DNA from: Candidatus Zhuqueibacterota bacterium
GTDB lineage: Bacteria > Zhuqueibacterota > Zhuqueibacteria > Oceanimicrobiales > Oceanimicrobiaceae
Direction of reading: 5' to 3'
Length of the DNA: 64,000 bases
Assembly (NCBI GenBank): GCA_029262055.1
Contig: JAJDAD010000054.1
Span: forward strand, 1-64,000
The notes below the pieces were generated by a model. The model saw only the letters and a program-made list of their open reading frames with translations, had not been told where the DNA came from and searched no databases. Below are positions 7,752 to 26,368 of the stretch, one piece after another (the stretch's first letter is position 1; every line of letters starts with the position of its first letter). A program made the position numbers and the translations under genes.

Positions 7752-7801
7752 AGTGGTAAACTTTCATCCGGAATGGGTGGCAGGTTTCACCGGAATACAC
7801 A
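7752..7801 (-). repeat. IS21 right terminal inverted repeat region
   Basis: Read on the minus strand from 7801, this reproduces the left end: TGTGTATTCCGG, then an AACCTGCCACCCATTCCGG-type unit, then a second unit starting TTCCGGATGAAAG. It marks the right boundary of the element. Confidence 0.85.
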
Positions 7802-7856: not shown

Positions 7857-9800
7857 ATGAGAAGAATGCAAGCGACCGTCCTCCTCATACTTGTCTGTGT
7901 GTTTGCCGGATTCGATTGCGGCTATTTTGGTCCTGCTTTCGCAAATGCCGGCGGGGACGAGAGTCTGGATATCAAGCGCATTGTGCCGGGTCTGCTGCTG
8001 GACGCGGACGCTGTGATTCGTCTCAACCTGCACAAGTTCGTCGTGGAAAACACCGCCCGGGCGCGCGAGTCCGTTCGTCTCGTCATCACGATTATGAATG
8101 AGAAAGGGCGGGATTTCGGGCAACACGTTATCCCGTACGATAAATTCCGTACGGTCAAGAAGGTGCAGGGCTTGATTCGTAACCCGGACGGATCGGTTTA
8201 TCGCAAACTGAAGCAGGACGAAATCGCAGACTACAGCGCGACAGCGGCCTACAGTCTTTACGATGACACTCGTATCCGGGTCGTGGAGTTGTATCACGAT
8301 CATTATCCCTACACCATCGAACTGGAATATGAGCTGGAACGTAAAGGCCTAATCAATTGGACAACCTGGTATCCGCAGCGAAACGGCCAGCCGTTGGAAA
8401 AGGGCAAGTTCGAACTGGTGCTGCCCCTGGCAATGGATTTTAGGTTTCAGCCTAGAAACCTGCAAGCCGAACCCAAGATCACCCAGATGGGCGACAAGAA
8501 GTCATATGTTTGGGAGGTCGTCAATCTCACGGGGCTGAGCTACGAGCCCTATTCGCCGCCGTGGCCCGAGCGCGTGCCAACGCTGATTGTTGCGCCAAAC
8601 AAGTTCGAGATCGAGGGTCACGCCGGCGACATGTCCAGCTGGGGTGCGTTTGCAGCCTGGTACTACCGACTGGGCGAAGGGCGTGATGCTCTGCCCCCTG
8701 CGGTCCGGCAGGAAGTGCGCGAAATCACTGCCGGTGTGCAAAGTCCGGTAGAGAGAGCAAGGAAGTTGTATGAGTATTTGCAGAAAAACACCAGGTACAC
8801 GAGCATCCAGCTCGGTATCGGTGGCTGGCAGCCGTTCGACGCGACGTACGTTTTCGAAAAAGGCTACGGAGACTGCAAAGCGCTGTCCAATTACATGCTC
8901 GCTATCCTGAAGGCTGCGGACGTGCCGGCCTTTCCGGCGCTCACGCGTCTCGGCACAAATGAAACAGACGTGCTCGCTGACTTTCCGAGCAACCAGTTTA
9001 ACCACGTGATCTTGTTCGTGCCGACGCCAGAGGATACGGTCTGGCTGGAGTGCACGAGCCAGACCATGCCGTTTGCACACATCGGCGCGGCCAATGAAGA
9101 TCGCAACGTTCTGGTGGTAACGCCGGATAGCGGAAAAATCGTCCGCACGCCGGCAAGCCTGTTTCATCGCAATCGCCAGGTGCGGCGTGCGGTGGTAACG
9201 ATCGACGCGCGTGGCAATGGGCACGCGCAAGTAACCACGACTTTTACCGGCAACCAGCAGGATCGCGTACGGCAGGCGTTGGCGCAAAGCTCCGGCAGAG
9301 ACCGTGACGCATGGCTGCGCAACAGAATCGATATCCCGCGATTCCGCCTGCTGAAGGTAGATTTTTCGGATGTGGATCGGCAGGCGACCTCGATTTCCCT
9401 GCCCATGGAGCTGGAATTGCCACGCTATGCTTCCGTCACCGGCAGCCGGCTATTCCTGGGGCCGAACCTGATGGAGCGCTGGCAACATGTGCCGGACGAG
9501 GTCGAGGAGCGAACGCAACCCGTGCATTTCGCTTACACCTATGAGGATGTTGATTCGGTGGCGTTTCATCTGCCGGCCGGCTACAAAGTCGAAGCCATGC
9601 CCGAGGACGTGCGCCTGGTAACGGATTTTGGTCTGTACGAAGCAACCATAAAGATGCCGGATGCGAACTCGCTCGTTTACCGGCGGGCGTTGCGAAAAAC
9701 AAAAGACCGGCTACCACCTGAAGAATACGCCGCCTACCGTGAATTCGTCAGCAAAATAGTGAAAGCGGATCGTGCCCAGATCGTGCTGGTGAGGCAGTGA
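7857..9800 (+). CDS. DUF3857 and transglutaminase-like domain secreted protein
   Basis: A 647-residue exported protein. A signal peptide (residues 1-30, ending near FANAGG) is followed by DUF3857 (about 35-230), a transglutaminase-like domain (about 260-420) and a beta-rich C-terminal region. The putative catalytic Cys is in GYGDCKALS and the His in FNHVILFV; the acid position reads WLECTS (Glu or neighbouring Asp). Unlike the upstream paralogue, the Cys and His are kept. Family members are envelope proteins of unknown substrate. Originally the two genes were an operon with a 10-base gap; the IS21 now separates them, so expression may depend on read-through from the IS or on a new promoter. 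Confidence 0.85.
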   Translation: MRRMQATVLLILVCVFAGFDCGYFGPAFANAGGDESLDIKRIVPGLLLDADAVIRLNLHKFVVENTARARESVRLVITIMNEKGRDFGQHVIPYDKFRTVKKVQGLIRNPDGSVYRKLKQDEIADYSATAAYSLYDDTRIRVVELYHDHYPYTIELEYELERKGLINWTTWYPQRNGQPLEKGKFELVLPLAMDFRFQPRNLQAEPKITQMGDKKSYVWEVVNLTGLSYEPYSPPWPERVPTLIVAPNKFEIEGHAGDMSSWGAFAAWYYRLGEGRDALPPAVRQEVREITAGVQSPVERARKLYEYLQKNTRYTSIQLGIGGWQPFDATYVFEKGYGDCKALSNYMLAILKAADVPAFPALTRLGTNETDVLADFPSNQFNHVILFVPTPEDTVWLECTSQTMPFAHIGAANEDRNVLVVTPDSGKIVRTPASLFHRNRQVRRAVVTIDARGNGHAQVTTTFTGNQQDRVRQALAQSSGRDRDAWLRNRIDIPRFRLLKVDFSDVDRQATSISLPMELELPRYASVTGSRLFLGPNLMERWQHVPDEVEERTQPVHFAYTYEDVDSVAFHLPAGYKVEAMPEDVRLVTDFGLYEATIKMPDANSLVYRRALRKTKDRLPPEEYAAYREFVSKIVKADRAQIVLVRQ

Positions 9801-13164: not shown

Positions 13165-13282
13165 GCGGTGAGTGCAGCACAACGCATTACCGCTAGCCGC
13201 TGAGTGCGGCGGTTTACTTGAATCGGCATGCTCAACTTAGATGGTAATTTGGCTAATCAACAATGAATCCGCCGGAGGAAAG

Positions 13283-16200
13283 ATGAAGCTTCGAATCTTG
13301 ACCGTATTTCTGTCGACTTTTGTTTTTCTTAATTCCTGGGAGTCGGTGGCAGCTCAATCGCACAGCGATACAACAAAGACCACCCAAAGCGATTCAACAA
13401 GAACCGAAAACAAGAAGTGGGACGTCAGCGCTAAGCATGGCCCTGCAAGGGACGTGGAGTTCACGACGACGGAGGGCACATGGATGAATCTCGATGTCAG
13501 TCCCGACGGCCGGGAGATCGTATTTGACCTGCTGGGAGATATCTATCTCATGCCGATTGCCGGCGGTCAGGCCAGGCTTTTGTCCGGTGGGCCTGCCTTT
13601 GAGGTGCAGCCGCGCTTCAGTCCTGACGGCAAGCGCATCAGTTACACCAGTGACCGCGACGGCGGCGACAACATCTGGGTCATGAATCGCGACGGTTCGG
13701 AGGGGCATGCTGTCACAAAAGAGGATTTTCGTCTGCTCAATAATGCGTGCTGGACGCCTGACGGGGCGTATCTCATCGCACGAAAGCATTTCACCAGCCA
13801 GCGTTCTCTCGGTGCGGGCGAGATGTGGCTCTACCATAACTCCGGCGGTGACGGCCTGCAGCTTACCAAACGTAGAAATGACCAGCAGGACGCCGGCGAG
13901 TCCTGCGTCTCACCCGATGGCCGCTACGTTTATTTCAGCGAAGACATGAGTTCGGGTGGCGGTTTTCAATATAACAAAGATCCCAATGGGCAGATTTATG
14001 TAATTCGCCGACTGGACCGCGAGACGGGCAAGCTTGAAAATACCGTCAGCGGCGCCGGTGGAGCTGTGCGGCCACAGGTTTCGCCCGACGGCAATTATCT
14101 GGCATTTGTGCGCCGGGTTCGCACAAAAAGTGTGCTGTACGTTCATGATTTACGCAGCGGCGAACAATGGCCGGTGTACGACCAACTGAGCAAAGACCAG
14201 CAGGAAACCTGGGCGATTTTTGGCGTCTACCCGAACTACGCCTGGACCCCTGACAGCAAGGAGCTTGTAGTCTGGGCCAAGGGCCACATCTGGCGCATCC
14301 ATACGGAAAGCAAAGAAGTGGCACAGATCCCATTCACGGTCAATGTCAGACAAACTATCACAGAGGCCGTCCGCTATCCACAAACAGTAAGCCCGGATTC
14401 CTTTGCAGTCAAGATGGTTCGCCATGTCATCACGTCACCGGATGGCAAATGGCTGCTGTTCAGCGCCGCCGGACATCTCTGGAAAAAGGCACTGCCGGAC
14501 GGTAATTGCCAGCGCCTGACCAACGACGACCATTTCGAACAATGGCCGTCCTTCAGTCCTGATGGCCGCTGGATCGCGTACACGACCTGGAGTGACGGCG
14601 GCCTGGGTTCGGTTTACAAGATAAGAATCGACGGCAGCAGGAAGCGCAAACTGACGCGCCGCAAGGGTTACTACCGAACCCCGGCGTTTTCACCCGACGG
14701 CGACAAAATCGTCTACAGACGCACCAGAGGCAATAGCCTGCTTGGCTTTACGCACGGCGTCAATCCCGGTTTATACTGGATGTCAGCGGACGGCGGACCG
14801 GAGCATCTCATCACTGACACGGGTCGCGAGCCACGCTTCAGTCGCAAGGGCGACCGCATCTACTACCTGTCCGGTGGCGGCTTGGAGAAGGAGTACAGGA
14901 GCATCAGACTGGATGGCGGCGATGAACGGTCGCATTTCACGCTTAAATACGCCAATCACATTGTGCCTAGCCCTGACGAAAACTGGGTCGCCTTCACGGA
15001 GCTGTTCAATGCCTATGTCGCGCCCTTTCCCAAAACCGGCAAGACGTTTGATCTGAATTCGAAAACAAAAGCCATTCCGGTTAAGAAAGTTACCCGCGAT
15101 GCCGGCACCTATTTGCATTGGTCAGGGGATAGTAAGAAACTGCATTGGACAATCGGTCCGCAGTATTTCAGCAGAGAGTTGCGGGACTCCTTCAAGTTCG
15201 TTGCTGGTGCTCCGGATAGTATTCCCCCACCTGACAGCGTGGGAACGTCAATTGGGCTGAAATTGAAAACGGATGTTCCATCAGGAAAACTGGCTTTGAC
15301 CGGGGCGCGACTTATTACCATGAATGGTGATGAGGTCATTGAGCGCGGCACAATCGTAGTCGAGCAAAATCGCATCACTGCGGCTGGTGCGGCAGATGAT
15401 GTGACGGTACCTGACGATGCCAGGGTCGTCGATCTGCAAGGCAAAACCATCATGCCCGGTCTGGTTGACGTGCACGCGCATGCCATGCATTTCGGCTCCG
15501 GATTGATTCCGCAGCAGAGCTGGGCCTACTATGCCAACCTGTCCTACGGCGTGACCACCATGCATGACCCCTCTGCCACGACAGAGACTGTGTTTACCAT
15601 GTCGGAAATGGTCAAAGCCGGCGAGATGACCGGGCCGCGGGTTTTTTCCACCGGCACGATTCTGTACGGCGCCGATGGCGATTTCAAGGCTGTCGTGAAT
15701 AGTCTGGAAGATGCCCGTTCCCATCTGAGACGCCTGCAGGCGGTCGGCGCGTTTTCGGTGAAAAGCTACAATCAGCCACGGCGCAACCAGCGCCAGCAAG
15801 TGCTGAAAGCCGCGCGGGAATTACGGATGAATGTCTATCCCGAGGGTGGATCATTTTTATACCACAACATCTCCATGGTCATCGACGGCCATTCGGGCAT
15901 CGAGCATGCAATTCCCATCGCCCCGCTGTATCAGGATGTGCTCCGGCTTTGGAGCGCCACTGACGTGGGATACACGCCGACATTGGCGGTCGCATACGGC
16001 GGCATCTGGGGAGAGAACTATTGGTACCAAACATCAAACGTCTGGGAAAAACAGAGGCTGCTCAACTTTACACCCAGGCCGATCATCGACGCGCGCTCCC
16101 GGCGCCGCATGATGATTCCGGACGACGACTTCGGCCACATCAGCATTGCAACGGCCGCCAGGAACCTGGCGGATGCCGGGGTCAAAGTTCAACTCGGCGC

Positions 16201-16597
16201 TCATGGTCAGCTACAGGGGCTTGGCGCACACTGGGAATTGTGGATGTTGGCACAGGGCGGCATGGCGCCTCTGCAGGCAATACGGGCAGCCACTCTGGAT
16301 GGCGCTTATTACCTCGGAATGGATGAAAGCCTCGGCTCCCTGCAGCCCGGCAAGCTCGCGGATCTGATTGTGATGGAAGAGAATCCGCTGCAGGATATCC
16401 GGAACACCGAGTCCATTGTCTACGTCATGAAGAACGGCCGGCTTTACGATGCCGAATCCATGAATGAAATCGGAAATCATAGTCGGAAACGCAGCCCCTT
16501 CTATTGGGAGAATCCAAAAACCAGCGACGCCTTTGTCTGGAAAGGGCCTGGCATTGGTTTCGGCGAGCTGCAGTGCGGTTGCACAGTGAGTCAGTAG
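13283..16597 (+). CDS. Secreted beta-propeller (TolB/PD40-like) and amidohydrolase fusion protein
   Basis: About 1104 residues. The ATG at 13283 is chosen because GGAGG (13274-13278) lies just upstream and a signal peptide (MKLRILTVFLSTF, cleavage near SVAAQ) follows; an upstream in-frame ATG at 13241 adds only polar residues. The first roughly 640 residues carry WD40-like PD40 repeats (FSPDGKRISYTSDRDGG, FSPDGRWIAYTT). The last roughly 420 are a metal-dependent amidohydrolase of the urease superfamily: VDVHAHAMHF (HxH), later His residues in GHSGIEHA and GAHGQLQGLGAH, and the closing LQPGKLADLIVMEENPL. Such fusions are exported hydrolases of unknown substrate, perhaps peptide- or amide-cleaving. 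No partner gene is adjacent. Confidence 0.85.
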   Translation: MKLRILTVFLSTFVFLNSWESVAAQSHSDTTKTTQSDSTRTENKKWDVSAKHGPARDVEFTTTEGTWMNLDVSPDGREIVFDLLGDIYLMPIAGGQARLLSGGPAFEVQPRFSPDGKRISYTSDRDGGDNIWVMNRDGSEGHAVTKEDFRLLNNACWTPDGAYLIARKHFTSQRSLGAGEMWLYHNSGGDGLQLTKRRNDQQDAGESCVSPDGRYVYFSEDMSSGGGFQYNKDPNGQIYVIRRLDRETGKLENTVSGAGGAVRPQVSPDGNYLAFVRRVRTKSVLYVHDLRSGEQWPVYDQLSKDQQETWAIFGVYPNYAWTPDSKELVVWAKGHIWRIHTESKEVAQIPFTVNVRQTITEAVRYPQTVSPDSFAVKMVRHVITSPDGKWLLFSAAGHLWKKALPDGNCQRLTNDDHFEQWPSFSPDGRWIAYTTWSDGGLGSVYKIRIDGSRKRKLTRRKGYYRTPAFSPDGDKIVYRRTRGNSLLGFTHGVNPGLYWMSADGGPEHLITDTGREPRFSRKGDRIYYLSGGGLEKEYRSIRLDGGDERSHFTLKYANHIVPSPDENWVAFTELFNAYVAPFPKTGKTFDLNSKTKAIPVKKVTRDAGTYLHWSGDSKKLHWTIGPQYFSRELRDSFKFVAGAPDSIPPPDSVGTSIGLKLKTDVPSGKLALTGARLITMNGDEVIERGTIVVEQNRITAAGAADDVTVPDDARVVDLQGKTIMPGLVDVHAHAMHFGSGLIPQQSWAYYANLSYGVTTMHDPSATTETVFTMSEMVKAGEMTGPRVFSTGTILYGADGDFKAVVNSLEDARSHLRRLQAVGAFSVKSYNQPRRNQRQQVLKAARELRMNVYPEGGSFLYHNISMVIDGHSGIEHAIPIAPLYQDVLRLWSATDVGYTPTLAVAYGGIWGENYWYQTSNVWEKQRLLNFTPRPIIDARSRRRMMIPDDDFGHISIATAARNLADAGVKVQLGAHGQLQGLGAHWELWMLAQGGMAPLQAIRAATLDGAYYLGMDESLGSLQPGKLADLIVMEENPLQDIRNTESIVYVMKNGRLYDAESMNEIGNHSRKRSPFYWENPKTSDAFVWKGPGIGFGELQCGCTVSQ

Positions 16598-16713: not shown

Positions 16714-16736
16714 TCTGTAAGCAGGATCGTTACAGA
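16714..16736. promoter_or_regulatory. Dyad TCTGTAA-N9-TTACAGA before rrf2-type gene
   Basis: A perfect 7-bp inverted repeat with a 9-base spacer, 21 bases upstream of the Rrf2-type gene. The same core TGTAA-N9-TTACAG occurs at 17841-17860 before the sigma-factor gene. A dyad of this form is typical of Rrf2-family operators, so autoregulation is inferred. Confidence 0.55.
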
Positions 16737-16757: not shown

Positions 16758-17273
16758 ATGAATACCAGTAGTAGGTTTGTTGTCGCTATTCATGTTTTGG
16801 CGGCGATGGCACTGGACAGTGACAAGCCTCTCAAATCAGAAAGACTCTCCAGGAGTGTCAACACAAATGCGGTTGTGATCCGGCGCATTCTGGGCTTGTT
16901 GCGGGCGGCAGGCCTGGTTGTTTCCCAGGCCGGACCTGACGGTGGCTTTCGCCTGGCGCGGGAATCCCGGGCAATCTCTTTGCTCGATATTTACCAGGCC
17001 GTGGAAGAGGGCGAGTTATTCCATATGCACTACTCCGAACCAAGCTGCGATTGCCCCATCGGGGCTTACGTACAGGACAGTCTGGGCCAGGTTTTTAAGG
17101 ACGCGGACACAGCCATGAAAAAGGTTCTGCGCGGCCAGACCCTGGCTACTGTCACCCGGGAAATCCTGCAGCGTTCCGGCATTTCCGAGAAGCTGGACGA
17201 AGGATGGACCATCGATGAGCTGCATCGGCACTTTAGCTTCGAATCCGGACGGCTGGTCTTAAAGAAAACCTGA
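16758..17273 (+). CDS. Rrf2 family transcriptional regulator
   Basis: A 171-residue winged-helix regulator. Residues 1-80 form the Rrf2 DNA-binding domain (AIHVLAAMALD, RRILGLLRAAGLV, then the wing GPDGGFRLAR). After this comes the usual DIYQAVEEGELF segment. The CDCPIG stretch (two Cys around residues 96-98) recalls the sensory Cys region of Rrf2 proteins, but the classic three-Cys iron-sulfur set of IscR/NsrR is not complete, so a thiol or ligand sensor is as likely. It lies 24 bases upstream of a VOC gene, probably as one operon, with a dyad operator in front. Confidence 0.85.
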   Translation: MNTSSRFVVAIHVLAAMALDSDKPLKSERLSRSVNTNAVVIRRILGLLRAAGLVVSQAGPDGGFRLARESRAISLLDIYQAVEEGELFHMHYSEPSCDCPIGAYVQDSLGQVFKDADTAMKKVLRGQTLATVTREILQRSGISEKLDEGWTIDELHRHFSFESGRLVLKKT

Positions 17274-17297
17274 CAGGTTTCATTTATCGGAGGGCAT

Positions 17298-17675
17298 ATG
17301 GCAAAAGTACTTACGATCGGCGGCGTCTTTTTTAAATCAGAAGATCCGAAAAGTCTGTGTGCCTGGTATGAAAAGTGGTTGCAGTTCAAGCTTGAACCTG
17401 ACCACAACAGTGCCGCTTTCAAAGCTGCGGGTCTGCCCGAGTCGGCTTACGCGGTCTGGGCGCCTTTTCCAAAATCAACGTTCTATTTTGCGCCGGGCGA
17501 GCAGCAATTCATGCTCAACCTGATGGTAGATGATCTCGACGGTGCACTGGCTCAGGTAGAAGAGGGCGGTGCTGAACGTGTCGGGGAGATCGAAGAATGC
17601 GAGTATGGCCGCTTTGGCTGGTTCCTCGATCCGGAAGGGAATAAGGTGGAGTTGTGGCAACTCCCGCAGCAGTAG
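17298..17675 (+). CDS. VOC (glyoxalase/dioxygenase superfamily) protein
   Basis: A 125-residue single-module vicinal-oxygen-chelate protein. It has the N-terminal strand GGVFFKSEDPKSLCAWYEKW, the central LNLMVDDLDGALAQVEEGG and the final FGWFLDPEGNKVELWQ with the metal-ligand Glu. GGAGG stands 7 bases before the ATG. It probably dimerises. Co-transcription with the Rrf2 regulator suggests a role in detoxification or stress, but the substrate is unknown. Single-module VOC proteins are often annotated as glyoxalase or bleomycin-resistance-like without evidence. Confidence 0.85.
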   Translation: MAKVLTIGGVFFKSEDPKSLCAWYEKWLQFKLEPDHNSAAFKAAGLPESAYAVWAPFPKSTFYFAPGEQQFMLNLMVDDLDGALAQVEEGGAERVGEIEECEYGRFGWFLDPEGNKVELWQLPQQ

Positions 17676-17840
17676 CAGGACTCATTCCGCAAAAGAAGGC
17701 AAGAGTGTAGAACTTCTGCAAACGTTCCCCGACAAAGAAGAGCGGCTGCTTCGGCCGGTGCTCTTACAGCGTCAAGTCTCTCCACAACTTCGGGTATATT
17801 TGGGCAAAGGAATACGGGAAGAAGTTTTTTTGAAACTATT

Positions 17841-17860
17841 TGTAACTACCGTCGTTACAG
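17841..17860. promoter_or_regulatory. Second TGTAA-N9-TTACAG dyad, upstream of sigma-factor operon
   Basis: TGTAA (17841-17845), spacer of 9, TTACAG (17855-17860). It matches the dyad before the Rrf2 gene in arm sequence and spacing. It lies about 70 bases upstream of the ECF41-type promoter, so it might act on a separate vegetative promoter feeding the sigma operon. Confidence 0.5.
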
Positions 17861-17929
17861 AAGGTCAATTAGCCTAAGCTTACTGGTTGTCATTCGGCCA
17901 GCGACGTTTCGATTGAATGTTGGGCATGA

Positions 17930-17956
17930 TGTCACAAATAGGTAGCGTCTATCGTC
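17930..17956 (+). promoter_or_regulatory. ECF41-type promoter (TGTCACA-N16-CGTC)
   Basis: TGTCACA at 17930-17936 and CGTC at 17953-17956 with exactly 16 bases between. This is the consensus described for ECF41 sigma factors, and the downstream gene encodes such a sigma factor. Transcription would start near 17963, leaving a leader of about 40 bases before the ATG at 18002. Autoregulation is inferred. Confidence 0.75.
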
Positions 17957-18001
17957 TAAGGGGTGACAATACAAATAATCACCAGCGCTAGAAGAAAGAT
18001 C

Positions 18002-18865
18002 ATGCAAGATATAGATGTATTCAGCAAAAATCGTCCCTTGATATTCTCAATCGCCTACCGCATGCTGGGGAGTGTCTCGGACGCCGAAGACATTGTCCAG
18101 GAGACTTTCCTGCGTTGGCAGGTGACCGAACAATCGAAGGTCAAATCGGAGAAGGCTTTCCTGTCAACAATCGCGACTCGACTCTGCATCGATCATCTAC
18201 GCTCCGCCAGAGTCCAGCGCGAGACCTACGTCGGCCCGTGGCTACCGGAGCCTCTCACATATTCGGATCAGACAGATCCTGAGCAAGGGGCCGAGTTGGC
18301 AGAGTCTATTTCCACTGCATTTTTGTTGCTTCTGGAGAAACTGACCCCCACCGAACGGGCGGTGTTCTTACTGCGCGAGGTCTTCGACTACGACTATGCG
18401 GACATTGCTGAAATCGTCGGTAAGAAGGAGACGAATTGCCGGCAGATTTTCGGGCGAGCCCGCCAACAGGTTGCAAGAGAAAAGCCGCGCTTCAAATCTA
18501 GTAAAAGCGATCAAGAGAGAATTATTAGACAATTCATGCAGACGTCGCTTACAGGAGATGCGGACGGGCTGATTCAACTCCTGACAGATGAAATCACATT
18601 GTGGACGGACGGAGGCGGCAAAGTCACAGCTGCCACCCGTCCGGTTCTGGGTAGTGCCAATGTCTGCAGTTTCATACTTGGGATATTGCGGAAGCATACC
18701 GGTTTTGCCAGCGAAATCGAGATGGTTAATGGCCAGCTCGGCATAGTCAATCGGGCTGACGGCAAAGTGCGGAACGTTCTAACCTTCGAGATCGCAGACA
18801 ACTTAATTCAAGCCATTTTTATTGTGGCTAACCCGGACAAATTACCGAACCAGAATTTCTATTAG
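18002..18865 (+). CDS. ECF41-family RNA polymerase sigma factor (SigJ-like)
   Basis: About 287 residues. The sigma-2 region (SIAYRMLGSVSDAEDIVQET) and sigma-4 region (LTPTERAVFLLREVFDYDY, then helix-turn-helix) are followed by a SnoaL/NTF2-like C-terminal domain. The two diagnostic ECF41 motifs are present: DGGGK (in LWTDGGGKVTAA) and NPDKL near the C-terminus. In this group the C-terminal domain regulates sigma activity in place of an anti-sigma factor. The ATG at 18002 is chosen over the GTG at 17963 because the latter coincides with the predicted transcription start. The downstream genes encode envelope export functions rather than the oxidoreductase, epimerase or decarboxylase partners usual for ECF41. 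Confidence 0.9.
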   Translation: MQDIDVFSKNRPLIFSIAYRMLGSVSDAEDIVQETFLRWQVTEQSKVKSEKAFLSTIATRLCIDHLRSARVQRETYVGPWLPEPLTYSDQTDPEQGAELAESISTAFLLLLEKLTPTERAVFLLREVFDYDYADIAEIVGKKETNCRQIFGRARQQVAREKPRFKSSKSDQERIIRQFMQTSLTGDADGLIQLLTDEITLWTDGGGKVTAATRPVLGSANVCSFILGILRKHTGFASEIEMVNGQLGIVNRADGKVRNVLTFEIADNLIQAIFIVANPDKLPNQNFY

Positions 18866-18909
18866 ATTCTTGGGAATTCTATTTGAATCTGTTCGAGAAA
18901 GGAATGTAA

Positions 18910-21273
18910 ATGAGCGAGAAGTTTGACCAAAAGGTTGTGGACCTGACCCGTTGGGTTATCAAATGGCGGTGGGCAGTTATTGTCGTAATGTTGTTGTTTG
19001 CAGGCATAATCGGTAGCGGTGGCCGGTTTCTGAGGTTTGATACAAGCTATCGAGTTTTTTTCAGCAAAGATAATCCTCAGCTAACCGCCTTCGAGGCACT
19101 GCAGGATATTTACACAAAGAACGATAACATTCTCTTCGTTTTTGAACCGGATGGTGATGATGTGTTCACTCCGGAAACTCTAAACATGATAGAGGAATTC
19201 ACGGCCGATGCATGGAAAATCCCTTACGCTATTCGCGTTGACGCCGTTACAAATTTCCAGCATACACAGGCTTTTGACGACGACCTGATGGTTGACGATT
19301 TAATCGCCAACGCCCTGACCCTGTCTTCGGCCGAGATCGAGAAAGCCAGGAGTGTTGCCATCGATGAGCCGCAGTTGCGGAGCCGGCTCATCTCACCGGA
19401 AACTCACGTAGTGGCAGTCAATGTCACGTTCCAGTTGCCCGGCAAAGACCAGGCAAAGGAAGTGCCGGAGGTAGTGACGTACGCGCGCAATCTCGCCAAC
19501 AGCTACCGCGATGCAAACCCATCGGTCAACATTTATGAAACCGGGGTTGTGATGTTGAACAACGCTTTTTCAGAAGCGGCTTTGACCGACATGAGTTCTT
19601 TGATTCCAGCCATGTACCTGGTCATGATCCTGGTGATGTTTGTCGTCCTGCGGACCGTGAGTGGAACTTTGGCGACCGTATTGGTAATCTTCCTTTCCAG
19701 CTTGACCGCTATGGGCGCTGCCGGCTGGTTACACACCGGGTTGACCGCTCCATCCTCGATTGCCCCAACCATGATTATGACACTCGCGATTGCCGACAGC
19801 CTGCACATCTTGATTACGATGCTGCGCGAGATGAGGCGCGGCCTGGGCAAGAGGGAGGCGATAGTAGAAAGCATACGGCTCAATATGACGCCGGTTTTTC
19901 TAACGAGTCTGACGACCGCCATCGGTTTTCTGAGCATGAATTTCAGCGATGCGCCCCCCATGTGGCATTTGGGGAATATAACCTCAGTTGGTGTGATCGC
20001 AGCTTTCTTGTACTCGGTCTTGCTGCTGCCTGCCCTCATGGCAGTTCTACCTCTTAAGGCCCGGTCGCGCAAGAGTACGAAAGAGGCTGTAATCGATCGC
20101 TTTGCCGAATTCGTAATAGCACGCCGAAGGGTGCTGCTTTGGGGGACCGGACTCACGATCCTGCTGATAGCTTTCGCCATTCCGCAGAATGCTCTCAATG
20201 ACCAATTTGTGAAGTACTTCGATGAATCGGTGCAATTTCGACGCGACACCGACTTCATGGTTGAAAACTTGTCCGGCATCTACCAGGTGGAATTCTCTTT
20301 GGCCGCCGGCGAAAGTGGTGGTATCAGCAATCCAGAGTACTTGACCGAACTAGAGCGTTTTGCCGCGTGGTTGCACACGCAACCCGAGGTTGTGCACGTC
20401 AACTCTTTCAGCGAGGTCATGAAACGGGTAAATAGGAGCATGCACGGCGATGACGAGAATTGGTATCGCGTTCCCGAGAGTCGCGAATTGGCGGCGCAAT
20501 ACCTGCTGCTTTACGAACTGTCCCTGCCCTACGGACTCGATTTGAACAATCAGATCAATGTGGACAAATCGGCTACGCGCTTCTCAGTCACTCTCGATGA
20601 TCTCTCCTCTACGGAATTACGAGAATTTACCGAGCGAACTCAGGATTGGCTGCGGTCCAATGTTCCAGACTATATGTTTTCGTATGGCGTCGGACCGGCA
20701 GTCATGTTCGCGTACATTTCGGATCGCAATATCATCAGCATGCTGAAAAGCACGACCGCCGCCTTGATTTTGATTTCGTTCTCACTTATGTTGGCTCTGC
20801 GCAGCACCAAGTTTGGCTTGCTCAGTTTATTGCCAAACCTCGTGCCGGCAACCTTGGCTTTTGGCGCCTGGGGCTTGACAGTCGGAGAAATCAACATGGC
20901 GACTTCGGTGGTGGCCGGCATGACTTTAGGGATAATCGTCGACGATACGGTTCATTTTCTGTCAAAATACTTAAGAGCGCGACGCGAAAAAGGCATGGAT
21001 TCTAAAGATGCCGTTCGCTATGCCTTCTCCACGGTCGGGGTCGCATTAGTCGTCACATCCGTCATTCTTGTGGCGGGATTTGTCATTCTCAGTTTTTCCG
21101 CCTTTACCATGAACTCGGGCATGGGCAAACTCACCGCGCTCACAATTGTGTTTGCCCTGCTGGCTGATTTCCTGTTCTTGCCACCGCTTTTGATGCGAAT
21201 CGACAAAGGGGAAAGCCAAAAGACCGCAGAACCGGATTTAGTAGAAGATGCTGCAGTGCTGGTTAACAACTGA
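18910..21273 (+). CDS. RND superfamily (MMPL/SSD-like) exporter
   Basis: A 787-residue inner-membrane protein with two repeated halves. Each half has one N-terminal membrane span, a large periplasmic loop and five further spans (spans near residues 20-40, 230-370, 410-430 and 620-765). MMPL-type features include PTMIMTLAIADSLHILI in the first half and MATSVVAGMTLGIIVDDTVH in the second, which carries the proton-relay acids. Relatives export lipids, hopanoids or other hydrophobic molecules. The adjacent LolA-like and porin-like genes suggest transfer of a lipophilic cargo to the outer membrane. It starts 44 bases after the sigma gene with AAAGGAA before the ATG. Confidence 0.88.
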   Translation: MSEKFDQKVVDLTRWVIKWRWAVIVVMLLFAGIIGSGGRFLRFDTSYRVFFSKDNPQLTAFEALQDIYTKNDNILFVFEPDGDDVFTPETLNMIEEFTADAWKIPYAIRVDAVTNFQHTQAFDDDLMVDDLIANALTLSSAEIEKARSVAIDEPQLRSRLISPETHVVAVNVTFQLPGKDQAKEVPEVVTYARNLANSYRDANPSVNIYETGVVMLNNAFSEAALTDMSSLIPAMYLVMILVMFVVLRTVSGTLATVLVIFLSSLTAMGAAGWLHTGLTAPSSIAPTMIMTLAIADSLHILITMLREMRRGLGKREAIVESIRLNMTPVFLTSLTTAIGFLSMNFSDAPPMWHLGNITSVGVIAAFLYSVLLLPALMAVLPLKARSRKSTKEAVIDRFAEFVIARRRVLLWGTGLTILLIAFAIPQNALNDQFVKYFDESVQFRRDTDFMVENLSGIYQVEFSLAAGESGGISNPEYLTELERFAAWLHTQPEVVHVNSFSEVMKRVNRSMHGDDENWYRVPESRELAAQYLLLYELSLPYGLDLNNQINVDKSATRFSVTLDDLSSTELREFTERTQDWLRSNVPDYMFSYGVGPAVMFAYISDRNIISMLKSTTAALILISFSLMLALRSTKFGLLSLLPNLVPATLAFGAWGLTVGEINMATSVVAGMTLGIIVDDTVHFLSKYLRARREKGMDSKDAVRYAFSTVGVALVVTSVILVAGFVILSFSAFTMNSGMGKLTALTIVFALLADFLFLPPLLMRIDKGESQKTAEPDLVEDAAVLVNN

Positions 21274-21310
21274 TATGCCAGCTAAGGAAGATACTTAAAG
21301 GAGATTCCCA

Positions 21311-22105
21311 ATGTTTAAGAAGATTGTACTCACATTGGCAGTGGCTGTTTGCTTCGGTTCCGTTTCCGCGGGCAGCGAAGAGAGTGCCGCAGTCGAGCGT
21401 GGCCTGGAAATAGCTATTGAAGCCGATAGAAGAGACACAGGATTTGAAGATTTCCAGGCCGATCTAATAATGCTCTTGCGCAACCGGCACGGCCAGGAAA
21501 GCACCCGAGACATCAGTAACCGTACGTTGGAAGTGGCCGATGACGGCGACAAGTCCCTGATCATCTTCAATAAGCCGCGCGATGTGAAGGGCACCGCTTT
21601 CCTTTCTTATAGTCATAAAACCGGCGCCGACGATCAGTGGCTTTATTTGCCGGCCCTGAAGCGCGTGAAGCGCATCGCGTCCAACAATAGGTCGGGGCCG
21701 TTCATGGGTAGCGAGTTTGCCTACGAAGACATCTCCTCTCAGGAGGTCGAAAAATACACGTACAAATATCTGCGGGATGAAGTTTATGAAGGGATGGACT
21801 GCCATGTCGTAGAGCGCTACCCGGTAGACAAAAAATCGGGATACACCCGGCAGGTGGTCTGGTTTGACCAGGCGGAATACCGTCCGCAGAAGCTGGACTT
21901 TTATGATCGCAAGAATGACCTGCTCAAGACTTTGACCTACCATAGCTACAAGCCCTACCTGGAAAAGTACTGGCGGGCGGATGAGATGCTTATGATAAAC
22001 CACCTGACCGGCAAAAGCACAAAGCTGATCTGGTCGAACTACAAGTTCGGCAACGACTTCAAGGAACGCGACTTTGACCGCAACTCGTTGAAACGGGCGC
22101 GCTAA
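21311..22105 (+). CDS. LolA-like outer-membrane lipoprotein-sorting family protein
   Basis: A 264-residue periplasmic protein with a signal peptide (first 20 residues, cleavage near SVSAGS). It belongs to the LolA-like family often found next to MMPL-type RND exporters. Recognisable segments are FEDFQADLIMLLRNRHGQ, ADDQWLYLPALKRVKRI, GSEFAYEDIS and VVWFDQAEYRPQKLDFYDRK. It is expected to form an open half-barrel that carries a lipid or acyl group across the periplasm. AAAGGAG precedes the ATG by 8 bases. It is 37 bases downstream of the exporter and its stop almost touches the next gene. Confidence 0.85.
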   Translation: MFKKIVLTLAVAVCFGSVSAGSEESAAVERGLEIAIEADRRDTGFEDFQADLIMLLRNRHGQESTRDISNRTLEVADDGDKSLIIFNKPRDVKGTAFLSYSHKTGADDQWLYLPALKRVKRIASNNRSGPFMGSEFAYEDISSQEVEKYTYKYLRDEVYEGMDCHVVERYPVDKKSGYTRQVVWFDQAEYRPQKLDFYDRKNDLLKTLTYHSYKPYLEKYWRADEMLMINHLTGKSTKLIWSNYKFGNDFKERDFDRNSLKRAR

Positions 22106-22107
22106 TC

Positions 22108-23322
22108 TTGTCGGCGATGCAGCATCGGGGTTGGCTTTGGTGCACGATCCTGCTCAGCTTGTTCTTTGCTGTTGCAGCTCTGCCGCAGACGGCGGAACTG
22201 AGCGGCTACGTTGCAATCGAAGCACGGGCATTTCCGCAAGCGCCTTTGCTGCCGGAGCAATTTTCCGGCGGTAACCTTGCCTTTTCGCTGCAGCCGGAGT
22301 TCTACTACGAATCGGGGAATGGCAGCGACAGAATTCTGTTTGTGCCGTTTATGCGCGCCGATCAGCACGATGGCAATCGGACACACTTTGATATTCGCGA
22401 GCTTTACTGGCAGCATGTGGCGGACTGGTGGGAACTAAGCCTCGGGATGCGCAAGATCTTTTGGGGGGTCGCCGAGTCCCAGCACCTGGTCGACATCATT
22501 AATCAAACCGATCAGTTGGAAAACCTCGACACGGAAGATAAGCTGGGCCAGCCGATGGCCCACCTTTCTATCGCGCGCAATTGGGGCATCCTCGATCTGT
22601 TCATCTTACCTTATTTCAGAGAAAGAAGCTTCCTGGCGCATGATGCCAGGCTGAGACTGCCGGTGCCCATCGCCAGGAACCGCACCAGGTATGAATCAGA
22701 TGATGAGGAGTGGCATTTGGACTGGGCCGCGCGCTGGTTTCACTCCATCAGTATTTTTGACGTCGGTCTCTCTCATTTCTCCGGTACCTCAAGAGAAGCT
22801 GTGGTCGAGGTCGGCGCGGGCGCGGGCGGTGAGTTATTTTTGGCTCCGTTTTATCCCATCATCGGCCAGACAGGTTTGGACATGCAGGCAACGACCGGCG
22901 CCTGGCTTTTGAAATTGGAAGCAATTCGCCGAACCGGCCAGGGCGATGCTTTCTTCGCGAGCACCACCGGGTTCGAATATACATTCAATAACATCAAAAA
23001 CACGGGCGCGGATATCGGCGTGTTGCTTGAGTATCACTACGATGAACGGGGTAAAGATGCGTCTTCCCCTTTTGATGACGATATCTTTGTCGGGTCCCGC
23101 CTGGCACTCAACGATGTGCAAAGCACCGACCTGCTGGCCGGTTTCATCGTCGACCGCGACAACGGCGCAACTTTTCTGAACCTGGAAGCCAGCCGGCGCA
23201 TCCGCGACCGCTACAGAATGGAGGTAGAATTTCGCAGTTTCCTCAACGCCGAGGAAACCGACCTGTTCTTTGGGTTGCGGAAGGATCATTATTTTCAGGT
23301 AGAGTTTTCGCGGTTTTTTTAG
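22108..23322 (+). CDS. Porin-like outer-membrane protein of the exporter operon
   Basis: About 400 residues. The start is either the TTG at 22108, 2 bases after the previous stop, or the ATG at 22117; coupling to the upstream gene is likely as no strong ribosome site is visible. A signal peptide (ILLSLFFAVAALPQT) is followed by strand-rich sequence with alternating aromatic residues. The end is the typical outer-membrane signature FFGLRKDHYFQVEFSRFF, with a C-terminal Phe. It probably forms a beta-barrel related to the proteins that accompany RND/LolA-like pairs. It would be the outer-membrane end of the export route; the exact family was not fixed. Confidence 0.7.
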   Translation: MSAMQHRGWLWCTILLSLFFAVAALPQTAELSGYVAIEARAFPQAPLLPEQFSGGNLAFSLQPEFYYESGNGSDRILFVPFMRADQHDGNRTHFDIRELYWQHVADWWELSLGMRKIFWGVAESQHLVDIINQTDQLENLDTEDKLGQPMAHLSIARNWGILDLFILPYFRERSFLAHDARLRLPVPIARNRTRYESDDEEWHLDWAARWFHSISIFDVGLSHFSGTSREAVVEVGAGAGGELFLAPFYPIIGQTGLDMQATTGAWLLKLEAIRRTGQGDAFFASTTGFEYTFNNIKNTGADIGVLLEYHYDERGKDASSPFDDDIFVGSRLALNDVQSTDLLAGFIVDRDNGATFLNLEASRRIRDRYRMEVEFRSFLNAEETDLFFGLRKDHYFQVEFSRFF

Positions 23323-23389
23323 CCGGACCTATTCCAAGAAGGATTCCTCCTGAATGACTGTGGTTGCCTGGTGTGCCCAATACGCAGAT

Positions 23390-24049
23390 TCATGAATTAT
23401 CCAGGCGAGCCAATCGCTTACAAATAGTCACAGCAGTTCCGGCATCTTCAGCGTAAGCATCGGAGCCTATTTCATGCGCGAAATGTTCCGTAACCGGGGC
23501 TCCTCCCACGATCACCTTAACTCCTTCCCGCAGGTTGCTTTTCTGCAGGCTTTCAATGACCTGTCTCATAGCAGGCATGGTGGTAGTGAGAAATGCAGAC
23601 ATACCTAAGATATGGGGCTGATGCTGTTGAACCGCAGAAATGAAAGTCTCCGTAGCCACATTGATCCCCAGGTCAAGCACCGTAAAACCAGTTCCCTCCA
23701 ACATATAAATCACAATGTTTTTGCCAATATCATGCAGGTCTCCTGCGACCGTACCGATAACAACTTTTCCGGCAGGCTTAATGTCAGATTTTGATAATTC
23801 GGGTTTCAATAATTCCATTCCTGCTTTCATGGCGCGCGCGGCCAGCAGGACTTCAGGCAGGAACATGTCACCATCCCGAAACCGGGCTCCCACAACATCC
23901 ATTCCGGGGATCAAGCCAAAGTCCAGGAACTCTTTTGCAGTAATCCCGTTAGCAAGCGCTTCCTGAGTTAGTTGCGCCGCGTCCTCGTCATTGCCTCTGA
24001 TAACGGAATTAGATGCGAGTTCAAAATTTATTTTCTTGTCGAATGACAT
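23390..24049 (-). CDS. Corrinoid (B12-binding) protein of a methyltransferase system
   Basis: A 219-residue corrinoid shuttle protein of the MtbC/MttC/MtgC type. It has an N-terminal helical cap (DVVGARFRDGDMFLPEVLLA) and a Rossmann B12-binding domain with the lower-ligand motif DLHDIGKN (DxHxxG), followed by MSAFLTTTM (SxL) and VGGAPVT (GG). It accepts a methyl group from the substrate-specific methyltransferase and passes it on. GAGGAAGACA precedes the ATG. The gene overlaps the end of the reactivation-like gene by 29 bases, so the three genes form one operon. It ends about 70 bases from the convergent porin-like gene. Confidence 0.9.
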   Translation of the reverse strand: MSFDKKINFELASNSVIRGNDEDAAQLTQEALANGITAKEFLDFGLIPGMDVVGARFRDGDMFLPEVLLAARAMKAGMELLKPELSKSDIKPAGKVVIGTVAGDLHDIGKNIVIYMLEGTGFTVLDLGINVATETFISAVQQHQPHILGMSAFLTTTMPAMRQVIESLQKSNLREGVKVIVGGAPVTEHFAHEIGSDAYAEDAGTAVTICKRLARLDNS

Positions 24050-24788
24050 TGTCTTCCTCAGTCATAGTCTGTTTCGCAAGCACTCGTAGATTTTTCATCC
24101 GTTGCAGACAGGAATAAGTTGTGCAGGGCTCGCAAAAATCCCAGTGAGGTTCAAAGTAATTGATTTCCCTCGCACCGGCAACTAAAACACCGGATACGGA
24201 CTTGATGGGGTGCATTAAGCAGTTGTCATTTAGCTCAATTCCAACCCGTTCCGGCTTGAGAAGCTGAAAAAGTTTCTTTTGCCCAGTAACATGCCAGCCA
24301 CAGTATCCCGGACTGTACGCCAGGACACAAGTGTCGTGAATTGTCGGTTGTTTCTTGGCTATGAGATTGTAGAAAAATTGTTCGCAGAATTCGGAGCCGT
24401 TATCTGCAGCCACGGAGGCCGCCGCGTCGAGTGCGCCGCCCAGGGCAACATCGCCTGAATTACAAAGACCTGCAATTTTTCCGCTGATTTTCTCGCCCAG
24501 GGTCAAAGCATAAACGGCCAAACGTCTGGCTTGCGGGAAGATATGTTCCAAAGGCGTATCCCTGGCATTGCATCCTTCGCCTGCATAAACAATCGTAAAC
24601 TGCTTTTCACTGATTTCCGTCATAACGCCCGCCGGGGCCGCATATTGGGACAAAATCTCGATCGCATTTTCCACGAGGCTTTGGACTGCGCTGGAAACCG
24701 CCGCCCGCCTCGGTACCCCCATCTGCATGAGGACCGATTCGGGTTTCGGCATAACCTCCGTTATAGTCAATGGAACGATTCGTGACAT
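24021..24788 (-). CDS. Methionine-synthase activation-domain-like protein (putative corrinoid reactivation)
   Basis: About 255 residues. The ATG at 24788 is chosen because it stands 1 base after the stop of the upstream methyltransferase gene; the longer frame only reads back into that gene. It resembles the B12-dependent methionine synthase activation region: EHIFPQARRLAVYALTLGEK, GGALDAAASVAADN, and the SAM-binding-type motif YSPGYCGW. The C-terminal part has several Cys (WDFCEPCTTYSC), suggesting a redox or metal site. In MetH the domain methylates cob(II)alamin with SAM after reduction, so reactivation of the neighbouring corrinoid protein is the likely role. This stand-alone form is inferred, not proven. 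Confidence 0.7.
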   Translation of the reverse strand: MSRIVPLTITEVMPKPESVLMQMGVPRRAAVSSAVQSLVENAIEILSQYAAPAGVMTEISEKQFTIVYAGEGCNARDTPLEHIFPQARRLAVYALTLGEKISGKIAGLCNSGDVALGGALDAAASVAADNGSEFCEQFFYNLIAKKQPTIHDTCVLAYSPGYCGWHVTGQKKLFQLLKPERVGIELNDNCLMHPIKSVSGVLVAGAREINYFEPHWDFCEPCTTYSCLQRMKNLRVLAKQTMTEEDNVIRQENKF

Positions 24789-24789
24789 A

Positions 24790-26211
24790 TCACTGCAAAT
24801 CATGAATATATGCCTCACCCTTCTCAAGCAATTCGTCATGGTCTTCAGGAGGTCTGAGGTCTGCCATAACGTCCATGACATGTTTCCTGAGCAAGTCTAT
24901 TGCTTTAGGAGATGCTTCCGCCTGCCACTTGTCCAGGGAGAACCCCGGCCAAATCTGACTGTGCTGATCATGCATCTCACGATAAAGGGCGAGGGTCTGT
25001 TCGGACATGAGAAAATTCCCGCCCGGCCCGACTGAGTCGATCTCAGCCAGTCCCACAGCGGCATGGTCCAGGGTGAATCCACGCGAGAAAAGCCGTACCT
25101 GCCGGATGATCTCATCGGAATAGACCACCGTTGCCGGGGAGAACGCCAGTGAGTCGAAGTTACCACCCACGAAGGGCGCCAATCCCACCTTGCCAAGACA
25201 GCTCGTTAGATGGTTCATCCACAAAGTTCCGCTGGCCAACAGGTCAGGTCCCCAGCCGGTACCGCTACCCGAGGTTCCGCAGTGGGGGATTCCATAATGA
25301 GCCATCATCTCGGCGCACGCCAGGTTCAATAACATCGTTTGCGGGGCGTAGGCGGAAATCATGCTCTTCATTTCAAAAACAGATGGCAGGCTGCCCAATA
25401 TCACCGGCGTTCCTTCTTTGACGAGCTGCGAAAACACCAGGCCGGCCAAAAGTTCCGCGTTTAGCATAACCAGGGTGCCGCCGGGCGTAATAGGTGCAGT
25501 TGCTCCCGACATACCATAACTCGAATAGATAAGCGGCAGCCCCTGCTCGATAGTCAAGATCATTTTGTCCGAAGTATCTTCATTCAGAGCAAGAGGCGTT
25601 ACCGGATTAAAGTAAGGAATGACAAAAGGATGGTCCGCCAGATCGCCGTGCAGGTGTTGCAGGAGTTTCAGGGCATGTTTAAATTGGGTCGTGCTGGAAA
25701 TCAGCAGGACCAGCGGTTTTGTTGTGTTTGCCACCATTTCCAGCGCTGCGTAAACTTCGGCTTGTTCACTGGAAATATCTTGAATGACTCCGGGAGTTGA
25801 GACTATCTCGAAGTTCATCAGAGTCTCGGCCAGTCGGGTGGAGATTTTCATATGCTCCCGGCTAAAAGGCGAAACCTCATCCGTTTGGGGGTCCTGGTAC
25901 CAGAGGTTTGTAACGCCTATGCCGAAAATTGTTTCCGTGTCTTTCGAGTCCAGGCAAAATGCGGAATCGCCGGTACGGTTGAATACCTCGATTGATGAAG
26001 GCGCTGACTTTAAAGCCTGTTCCACCAGGTCGGCTGGAATGCGAACTCTGTCTCCGTCCTGAGAACCTCCAATAGCTCCGGAGAAAATATCTCTCGCCCG
26101 CTCTGAATCAACGCGAATTCCTGTGGTTGCAAGCAAACTAAGTGAGTAGGCGTGAACCTGCTCTATCTGGTCTAGCGTCATGAGGGTAATTCGAGCTTGC
26201 GCGTTGTTCAT
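24790..26211 (-). CDS. MttB-superfamily (trimethylamine methyltransferase-like) corrinoid methyltransferase
   Basis: About 473 residues from the ATG at 26211, preceded by GAGGTG; the longer frame to 26304 lacks a ribosome site. The TIM-barrel MttB fold is recognisable from YSSYGMSGATAPITPGG, then AELLAGLVFSQL, and GTSGSGTGWGPDLLASG. No in-frame amber codon is present, so it belongs to the non-pyrrolysine branch, in which known members demethylate quaternary amines such as glycine betaine, proline betaine, carnitine or gamma-butyrobetaine. The substrate here is unknown. The operon order is methyltransferase, reactivation-like protein, corrinoid protein. No separate methylcorrinoid:tetrahydrofolate methyltransferase is visible. 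Confidence 0.85.
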   Translation of the reverse strand: MNNAQARITLMTLDQIEQVHAYSLSLLATTGIRVDSERARDIFSGAIGGSQDGDRVRIPADLVEQALKSAPSSIEVFNRTGDSAFCLDSKDTETIFGIGVTNLWYQDPQTDEVSPFSREHMKISTRLAETLMNFEIVSTPGVIQDISSEQAEVYAALEMVANTTKPLVLLISSTTQFKHALKLLQHLHGDLADHPFVIPYFNPVTPLALNEDTSDKMILTIEQGLPLIYSSYGMSGATAPITPGGTLVMLNAELLAGLVFSQLVKEGTPVILGSLPSVFEMKSMISAYAPQTMLLNLACAEMMAHYGIPHCGTSGSGTGWGPDLLASGTLWMNHLTSCLGKVGLAPFVGGNFDSLAFSPATVVYSDEIIRQVRLFSRGFTLDHAAVGLAEIDSVGPGGNFLMSEQTLALYREMHDQHSQIWPGFSLDKWQAEASPKAIDLLRKHVMDVMADLRPPEDHDELLEKGEAYIHDLQ

Positions 26212-26368
26212 TGATTGCACCTCATTCGTTGGCATTGAAAGCATTGCTCCGGTCGTCAAGAAGCTAACGCCAAAATCGGCTGACTTTTTTGGGTTCCGCT
26301 GCATTTGAATGCTATACTTTGTTTTGAGGATGGTTCCGGACCGACGCTATTTTGACTACTTGGTGATG

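Follow-up and report, generated by a model that had tools for sequence, protein, structure and literature searches.

Does a sigma factor gene at the head of an envelope export cassette mark a conserved system, or is it a local addition to an exporter that occurs elsewhere without it? The question is raised by a stretch of 64,000 nucleotides from Candidatus Zhuqueibacterota bacterium (contig JAJDAD010000054.1; the whole stretch is called the window here), in which an ECF41 sigma gene is followed closely by genes for an MMPL-type RND pump, a LolA-like carrier and an outer-membrane barrel. The run belongs together with an upstream rrf2 gene and two operator-like dyads (16714 and 17839), all left unmentioned in a preliminary description of the locus. 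All of its genes are on the + strand, with gaps of 44 bp (ECF41–MMPL), 37 bp (MMPL–LolA-like) and 2 bp (LolA-like–barrel). The features of the locus are as follows.

16714..16736, + strand: operator-like dyad O1, TCTGTAAGCAGGATCGTTACAGA, 3 mismatches to TTTGTAAC-N7-GTTACAAA, 21 bp before rrf2
16758..17273, + strand: Rrf2-family regulator gene rrf2 (PF02082, E 9.7e-31)
17298..17675, + strand: VOC/glyoxalase-like protein (PF18029), between rrf2 and the exporter operon
17839..17861, + strand: operator-like dyad O2, TTTGTAACTACCGTCGTTACAGA, 1 mismatch, inside a 34-bp block common with G001
17930..17956, + strand: ECF41-type promoter motif TGTCACA-N16-CGTC (consensus in PMC3426412)
18002..18865, + strand: ECF41 sigma factor with C-terminal regulatory extension (TIGR02957, 375 bits)
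18910..21273, + strand: MMPL/HAE3-like RND inner-membrane exporter (PF03176, E 3.1e-36)
21311..22105, + strand: LolA-like periplasmic carrier (PF17131, E 2.3e-64; DUF1329, E 2.6e-9)
22108..23322, + strand: putative outer-membrane beta-barrel, distant DUF1302-like (alignment; hhalign to related-cassette barrels)

The VOC protein gene has another position or is absent in the relatives examined. Directly 5′ of rrf2, positions 13241-16597 encode an 1118-aa protein in which WD40-like PD40 repeats are joined to an amidohydrolase domain. At its other end, the exporter operon is adjoined on the opposite strand by a gene group (23390-26304, − strand) whose products are a corrinoid protein, a methionine-synthase-activation-domain-like protein and an MTTB-family methyltransferase. 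The frame of the methyltransferase is uninterrupted, with no in-frame TAG.

The sigma gene and its promoter

The sigma factor, with sigma2-sigma4 and a C-terminal extension, scored 375 bits against TIGR02957 (SigX4; cut-off 323) and 347 bits against the SigJ model (cut-off 271). It carries the WLPEP linker (as GPWLPEP) and, towards the C-terminus, DGGGK and NPDKL; WLPEP and conserved C-terminal motifs have been described for ECF41 (PMC3426412). Judged by these hallmarks, the ECF41 identity proposed in the preliminary description is secure. The open reading frame as listed spans 17963-18865 and begins with a GTG at 17963. Because homologues start at M14 of this frame, the ATG at 18002 is probably the real start. 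The GC content of the gene (51.2%, compared with 51.6% for the window) does not mark it as foreign.

The published ECF41 promoter consists of TGTCACA and CGTC separated by 16±1 nucleotides (PMC3426412). When the 64 kb were scanned for TGTCACA-N14..19-CGTC, for which 0.22 exact matches are expected by chance, the sole exact match was found at 17930-17956, with a spacer of 16, as published. The preliminary description had seen no second promoter of this type inside the run, and the scan bears this out. The motif ends 45 bp 5′ of ATG 18002, so the transcript would be expected to start near 17963, and the promoter is predicted to be autoregulatory. Co-transcription of the four genes, also proposed earlier, is likely given their short gaps and common strand. 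A simple scan of 18865-18910, covering only the E. coli-type consensus, from which this phylum may differ, detected neither a sigma-70 promoter nor a terminator.

The sigma gene might nevertheless be a passenger, lying between promoter and operon and reading through into genes with which it has no functional link, its true target being elsewhere. ECF41 genes often stand alone (126, 34%), and a COE gene is lacking beside about 1/3 of them (PMC3426412). None is found beside the window sigma gene, whose neighbors encode the VOC protein and the MMPL pump. Our literature search, for which subscription journals were mostly outside reach, also returned no paper linking ECF41 with MMPL or RND pumps. 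However, the promoter pattern shows no excess over control in the whole genome of this organism (4 matches versus 11 in the reversed control), and the one other N16-spaced match falls inside a glmU-like gene. The sigma gene has kept an intact frame and its motifs, and the exporter lies behind the one good promoter that it has. We therefore consider a passenger role unlikely.

The exporter cassette and the distribution of ECF41

The preliminary description had placed an envelope-spanning cassette behind the sigma gene, and PF03176, PF17131 and barrel-profile evidence agree with this. The best NCBIfam model for the pump was HAE3 (TIGR00921), at 168 bits and below its cut-off of 352. Its best PDB matches by sequence were MmpL4 chains, with AcrB-type pumps behind. 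An identity as the hopanoid transporter HpnN was rejected, the pump scoring 92 bits against the HpnN cut-off of 752. The LolA-like protein matched PF17131 with 217 bits and DUF1329 with 37 bits (cut-off 23), and it matched PDB entry 3bk5 with an E-value of 3.7e-92. The open reading frame at 22108-23322 gave no match in a Pfam search, and a PDB profile search found nothing. Its AlphaFold model, computed with four homologues, reached a pLDDT of 37, too poor to use. We assign it as a predicted outer-membrane beta-barrel from its signal peptide, its C-terminal F and its profile similarity to the barrels of related cassettes. Compared by hhalign with an alignment of more distant cassette barrels, one of which matches DUF1302, it gave 93.6% and an E-value of 2e-7.

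Three genomes of the same family (G001, G002 and G003) have the MMPL-LolA-barrel cassette without the sigma gene, and their MMPL proteins are 68%, 66% and 60% identical, respectively, to that of the window. The MMPL gene is preceded by an unrelated open reading frame in G001, by rrf2 and then a short-chain dehydrogenase gene in G002, and by feoB/feoA-like genes and a NifU-like gene in G003 (assigned by eye from translations). In G002, a metallo-beta-lactamase-like gene lies between the LolA and barrel genes. Marine Gammaproteobacteria have cassettes whose MMPL is 45-47% identical to the window pump and in which the carrier is named an outer membrane lipoprotein-sorting protein. A Photobacterium plasmid (L217) has the MMPL-LolA-barrel order of the window and differs by a TetR gene upstream; a Pseudoalteromonas plasmid (L216) has the MMPL-LolA order. 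Neither ECF41 nor Rrf2 was seen with these two cassettes. A more distant LolA-barrel-MMPL version in G005 (L030) is accompanied by an AraC gene. As judged from gene neighborhoods, local regulators vary between copies of the exporter (TetR in Photobacterium, AraC in G005).

The MMPL-LolA pair of the Pseudoalteromonas plasmid (NZ_CP118497.1, 24 kb) stands directly 5′ of a gamma-mobile-trio recombinase gene, which suggests that the cassette can be mobile. In G007, the LolA-like and barrel genes are kept without the pump (L231, G007:C195, 3984-6173), and a close MMPL was not found in that genome. The window's own genome has two more LolA_like genes, on C16 (L032 7661-11707) and C77 (L033 5416-10384). 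Their neighbors encode FtsX-type permeases, an ABC ATPase and, apparently, a porin-like protein, so that the carrier family is coupled there to an ABC exporter rather than an RND pump.

ECF41 itself is rare in the phylum. A model search of 82 genomes gave a single one over the cut-off, that of the window. We then turned to 85 loci elsewhere that encode close relatives of ECF41, 80 of them taken from the genome collection and 5 from plasmids. Their flanks, of up to 6 kb, were searched with profiles by which the cassette is recovered in its relatives, and none contained an MMPL, LolA-like or barrel gene. The ECF41 promoter motif is present at 40 of these loci, and the annotated relatives have the usual oxidoreductase or carboxymuconolactone decarboxylase neighbor. 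In a tree, the window sigma factor is sister to cyanobacterial ECF41 (support 95/81). This branching, the rarity in the phylum, the absence of the pairing elsewhere and the conservation of the cassette without sigma point to a horizontal gain of ECF41 in this lineage.

The order ECF41-MMPL-LolA-barrel had been expected to be conserved, and the preliminary description had named its absence from relatives as grounds for refutation. The cassette is conserved, in G001-G003, but the sigma gene is not, so that for the sigma gene these grounds apply. If ECF41 were a dedicated, evolved regulator within a conserved ECF41-RND-LolA-barrel system, the tight same-strand spacing and the sole ECF41 promoter at the front would be readily explained. 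The pairing is nevertheless found in 0/3 cassette relatives, 1/82 phylum genomes and 0/85 ECF41 relatives, by which such a system is largely refuted in this set, and we regard it as very improbable. A further point in its favor is a one-strand run in G006, of the same family (L092, G006:C125, 230-5736), whose first gene encodes another kind of ECF sigma, extended at the C-terminus and weakly matching SnoaL_2, and which ends in a 1072-aa MMPL; pairing of this sort may recur. It was rejected as a second case: the sigma is another one, the MMPL is unrelated, and SRPBCC-like and DinB-like genes lie between.

The Rrf2 regulator and the operator-like dyads

The regulator encoded at 16758 matches PF02082 with 107 bits (cut-off 30) and is 65-66% identical to the Rrf2 encoded upstream of the G002 cassette. 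The dyad TTTGTAAC-N7-GTTACAAA is found ahead of rrf2 in the window, in G002 and in G007, and ahead of the exporter operon in G001 and G002; in the window, the corresponding site stands before the ECF41 gene. The G001 dyad, TTTGTAACTTACTTCGTTACAAA, is perfect, and no gene separates it from MMPL downstream. The dyads of G002 (L028) are at 7757 before rrf2 (3 mismatches) and at 8324 (2 mismatches) and 8404 (3 mismatches) before the dehydrogenase-MMPL operon. That of G007, where rrf2 occurs together with LolA and barrel genes, is at 284 in L195 (1 mismatch). No dyad within 4 mismatches was found near the G003 cassette. In G001, a 94%-complete draft, no Rrf2 was found at E<=1e-15, though the dyad and the cassette are present. 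Both results, like the lack of a close MMPL in G007, weigh against Rrf2 acting on the dyad as the ancestral control.

Six intergenic regions were shuffled 1000 times each. The observed best dyad was reached in 0/1000 shuffles in five of them and in 2/1000 in the sixth, upstream of rrf2 in G002. With at most one mismatch, the dyad occurs once in the 5.7 Mb of the window's own genome, at 17839. Sites with two mismatches, considered by themselves, occur across the genome about as often as a reversed control, which counts against the reading. A dyad placed before both a regulator gene and an operon is what is usually seen with a repressor that controls its own gene, and Rrf2 is for this reason the natural candidate to bind it. 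We infer that it does so, and it is probably the repressor of its own gene and of the exporter operon. A literature search, again with most subscription journals outside reach, gave no paper joining Rrf2 and MMPL.

The region 5′ of the window ECF41 gene, including the dyad at 17839, aligns with the region 5′ of the G001 MMPL gene over a block of 34 positions, 30 of which are identical. Its local score of 46 was not reached in any of 500 shuffles, the best of which gave 29. Between the 44-bp ECF41–MMPL gap and the region 5′ of the G001 MMPL gene, by comparison, the match was not significant (110/500 shuffles as good). These comparisons bear on the possibility that the exporter genes have a promoter of their own in the 3′ end of the ECF41 gene or in the gap, the sigma gene being merely upstream. 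The phylum may use a promoter consensus other than the E. coli type covered by our scan. Against this, the scan gave neither promoter nor terminator there, and the conserved ancestral upstream block is absent from the gap and is found before ECF41 instead. A separate exporter promoter thus appears quite unlikely.

Proposed history and comparison with known systems

Because the block that lies 5′ of ECF41 directly precedes MMPL in G001, the sigma gene appears to have entered behind an ancestral operator and promoter. In the reading that we prefer, with a probability of roughly 70%, a horizontally acquired ECF41 gene, bringing its own TGTCACA-N16-CGTC promoter, landed between the ancestral Rrf2 operator/promoter and the exporter, and leads the operon as an autoregulated second promoter. 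The unusual part of the locus is this added layer of control, in which an acquired sigma promoter that would activate itself is stacked behind the ancestral Rrf2 dyad.

In such a system, the RND pump, driven by the proton motive force, would take a hydrophobic molecule from the inner membrane, and the LolA-like shuttle would pass it through the periplasm to the outer-membrane barrel. The ancestral control in the family would be exerted by Rrf2, which would occupy dyads in front of rrf2 and at the promoter of the operon and hold both low. A signal that inactivates Rrf2 would free the ancestral promoter and yield a low-level transcript for sigma factor, pump, carrier and barrel. ECF41, with its C-terminal domain in the active state, would then recognize the promoter at 17930 and raise expression of its own operon. 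It is possible, and we propose it tentatively, that the self-activating sigma factor has turned a repressor switch into a two-stage positive-feedback switch, in which its C-terminal domain senses the molecule that is exported or a compound derived from it.

Little is known about the ligands of the C-terminal domains of ECF41 factors. A sigma factor leading a likely hydrophobe exporter would offer a testable ligand class for these domains, and the locus would illustrate clearly how a sigma gene gained by horizontal transfer can be tied into an operon already under repressor control. From the Rrf2 dyad, a control site is also predicted for a family of exporters that is widespread but has been little studied.

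The window sigma factor resembles the ECF41 factors Ecf41Bli, Ecf41Rsp and SigJ in domain order, WLPEP and C-terminal motifs, promoter motif and spacing (PMC3426412). It differs in its partners, which for known ECF41 factors are usually carboxymuconolactone decarboxylase, oxidoreductase or epimerase genes and here form an exporter operon. The window Rrf2 is like known Rrf2-family repressors in sequence and in having a dyad before its own gene and the neighboring operon, whereas the dyad TTTGTAAC-N7-GTTACAAA itself is unmatched to a described Rrf2 motif.

For the exporter, TOL_3187/TOL_3188 of Thalassolituus oleivorans, which are induced on a long-chain alkane, are similar by description, combining MMPL and LolA-like parts with a porin-like neighbor; unlike in the window, MMPL and a LolA-like domain are reported in one protein (PMC6304351). 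The characterized relative is AmeABCD of Castellaniella defragrans, in which one gene cluster encodes an HAE3-type RND pump of 787 aa, a LolA-superfamily protein and a DUF1302-type outer-membrane protein; when it is deleted, apolar monoterpenes are tolerated less well and more Nile Red accumulates (PMC6394551). The window has a pump of the same length, with HAE3 as its best model but below the cut-off, a LolA-superfamily periplasmic protein and a predicted outer-membrane barrel distantly like DUF1302, and its genes are likewise clustered. AmeABCD differs in a fourth protein, AmeC (COG4447), in gene order and in a larger LolA protein (DUF1329, 451 aa); it sits in a monoterpene island, and no ECF41 is reported with it (PMC6394551). 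No AmeC-like protein (COG4447) was found among the open reading frames of 16758-24049. We do not count the window exporter as a member of AmeABCD, since it lacks AmeC and its pump stays below the HAE3 cut-off. By analogy, it most likely works in the same way, and our best guess for its substrate class is a hydrophobic or amphiphilic compound. The genes, promoter and cassette of the export system first described thus stand, but not its standing as an undescribed ECF41 system. The exporter is of a known, ordinary kind, and its association with sigma is, from the sequences of the genomes examined, a lineage-specific regulatory variant of it.
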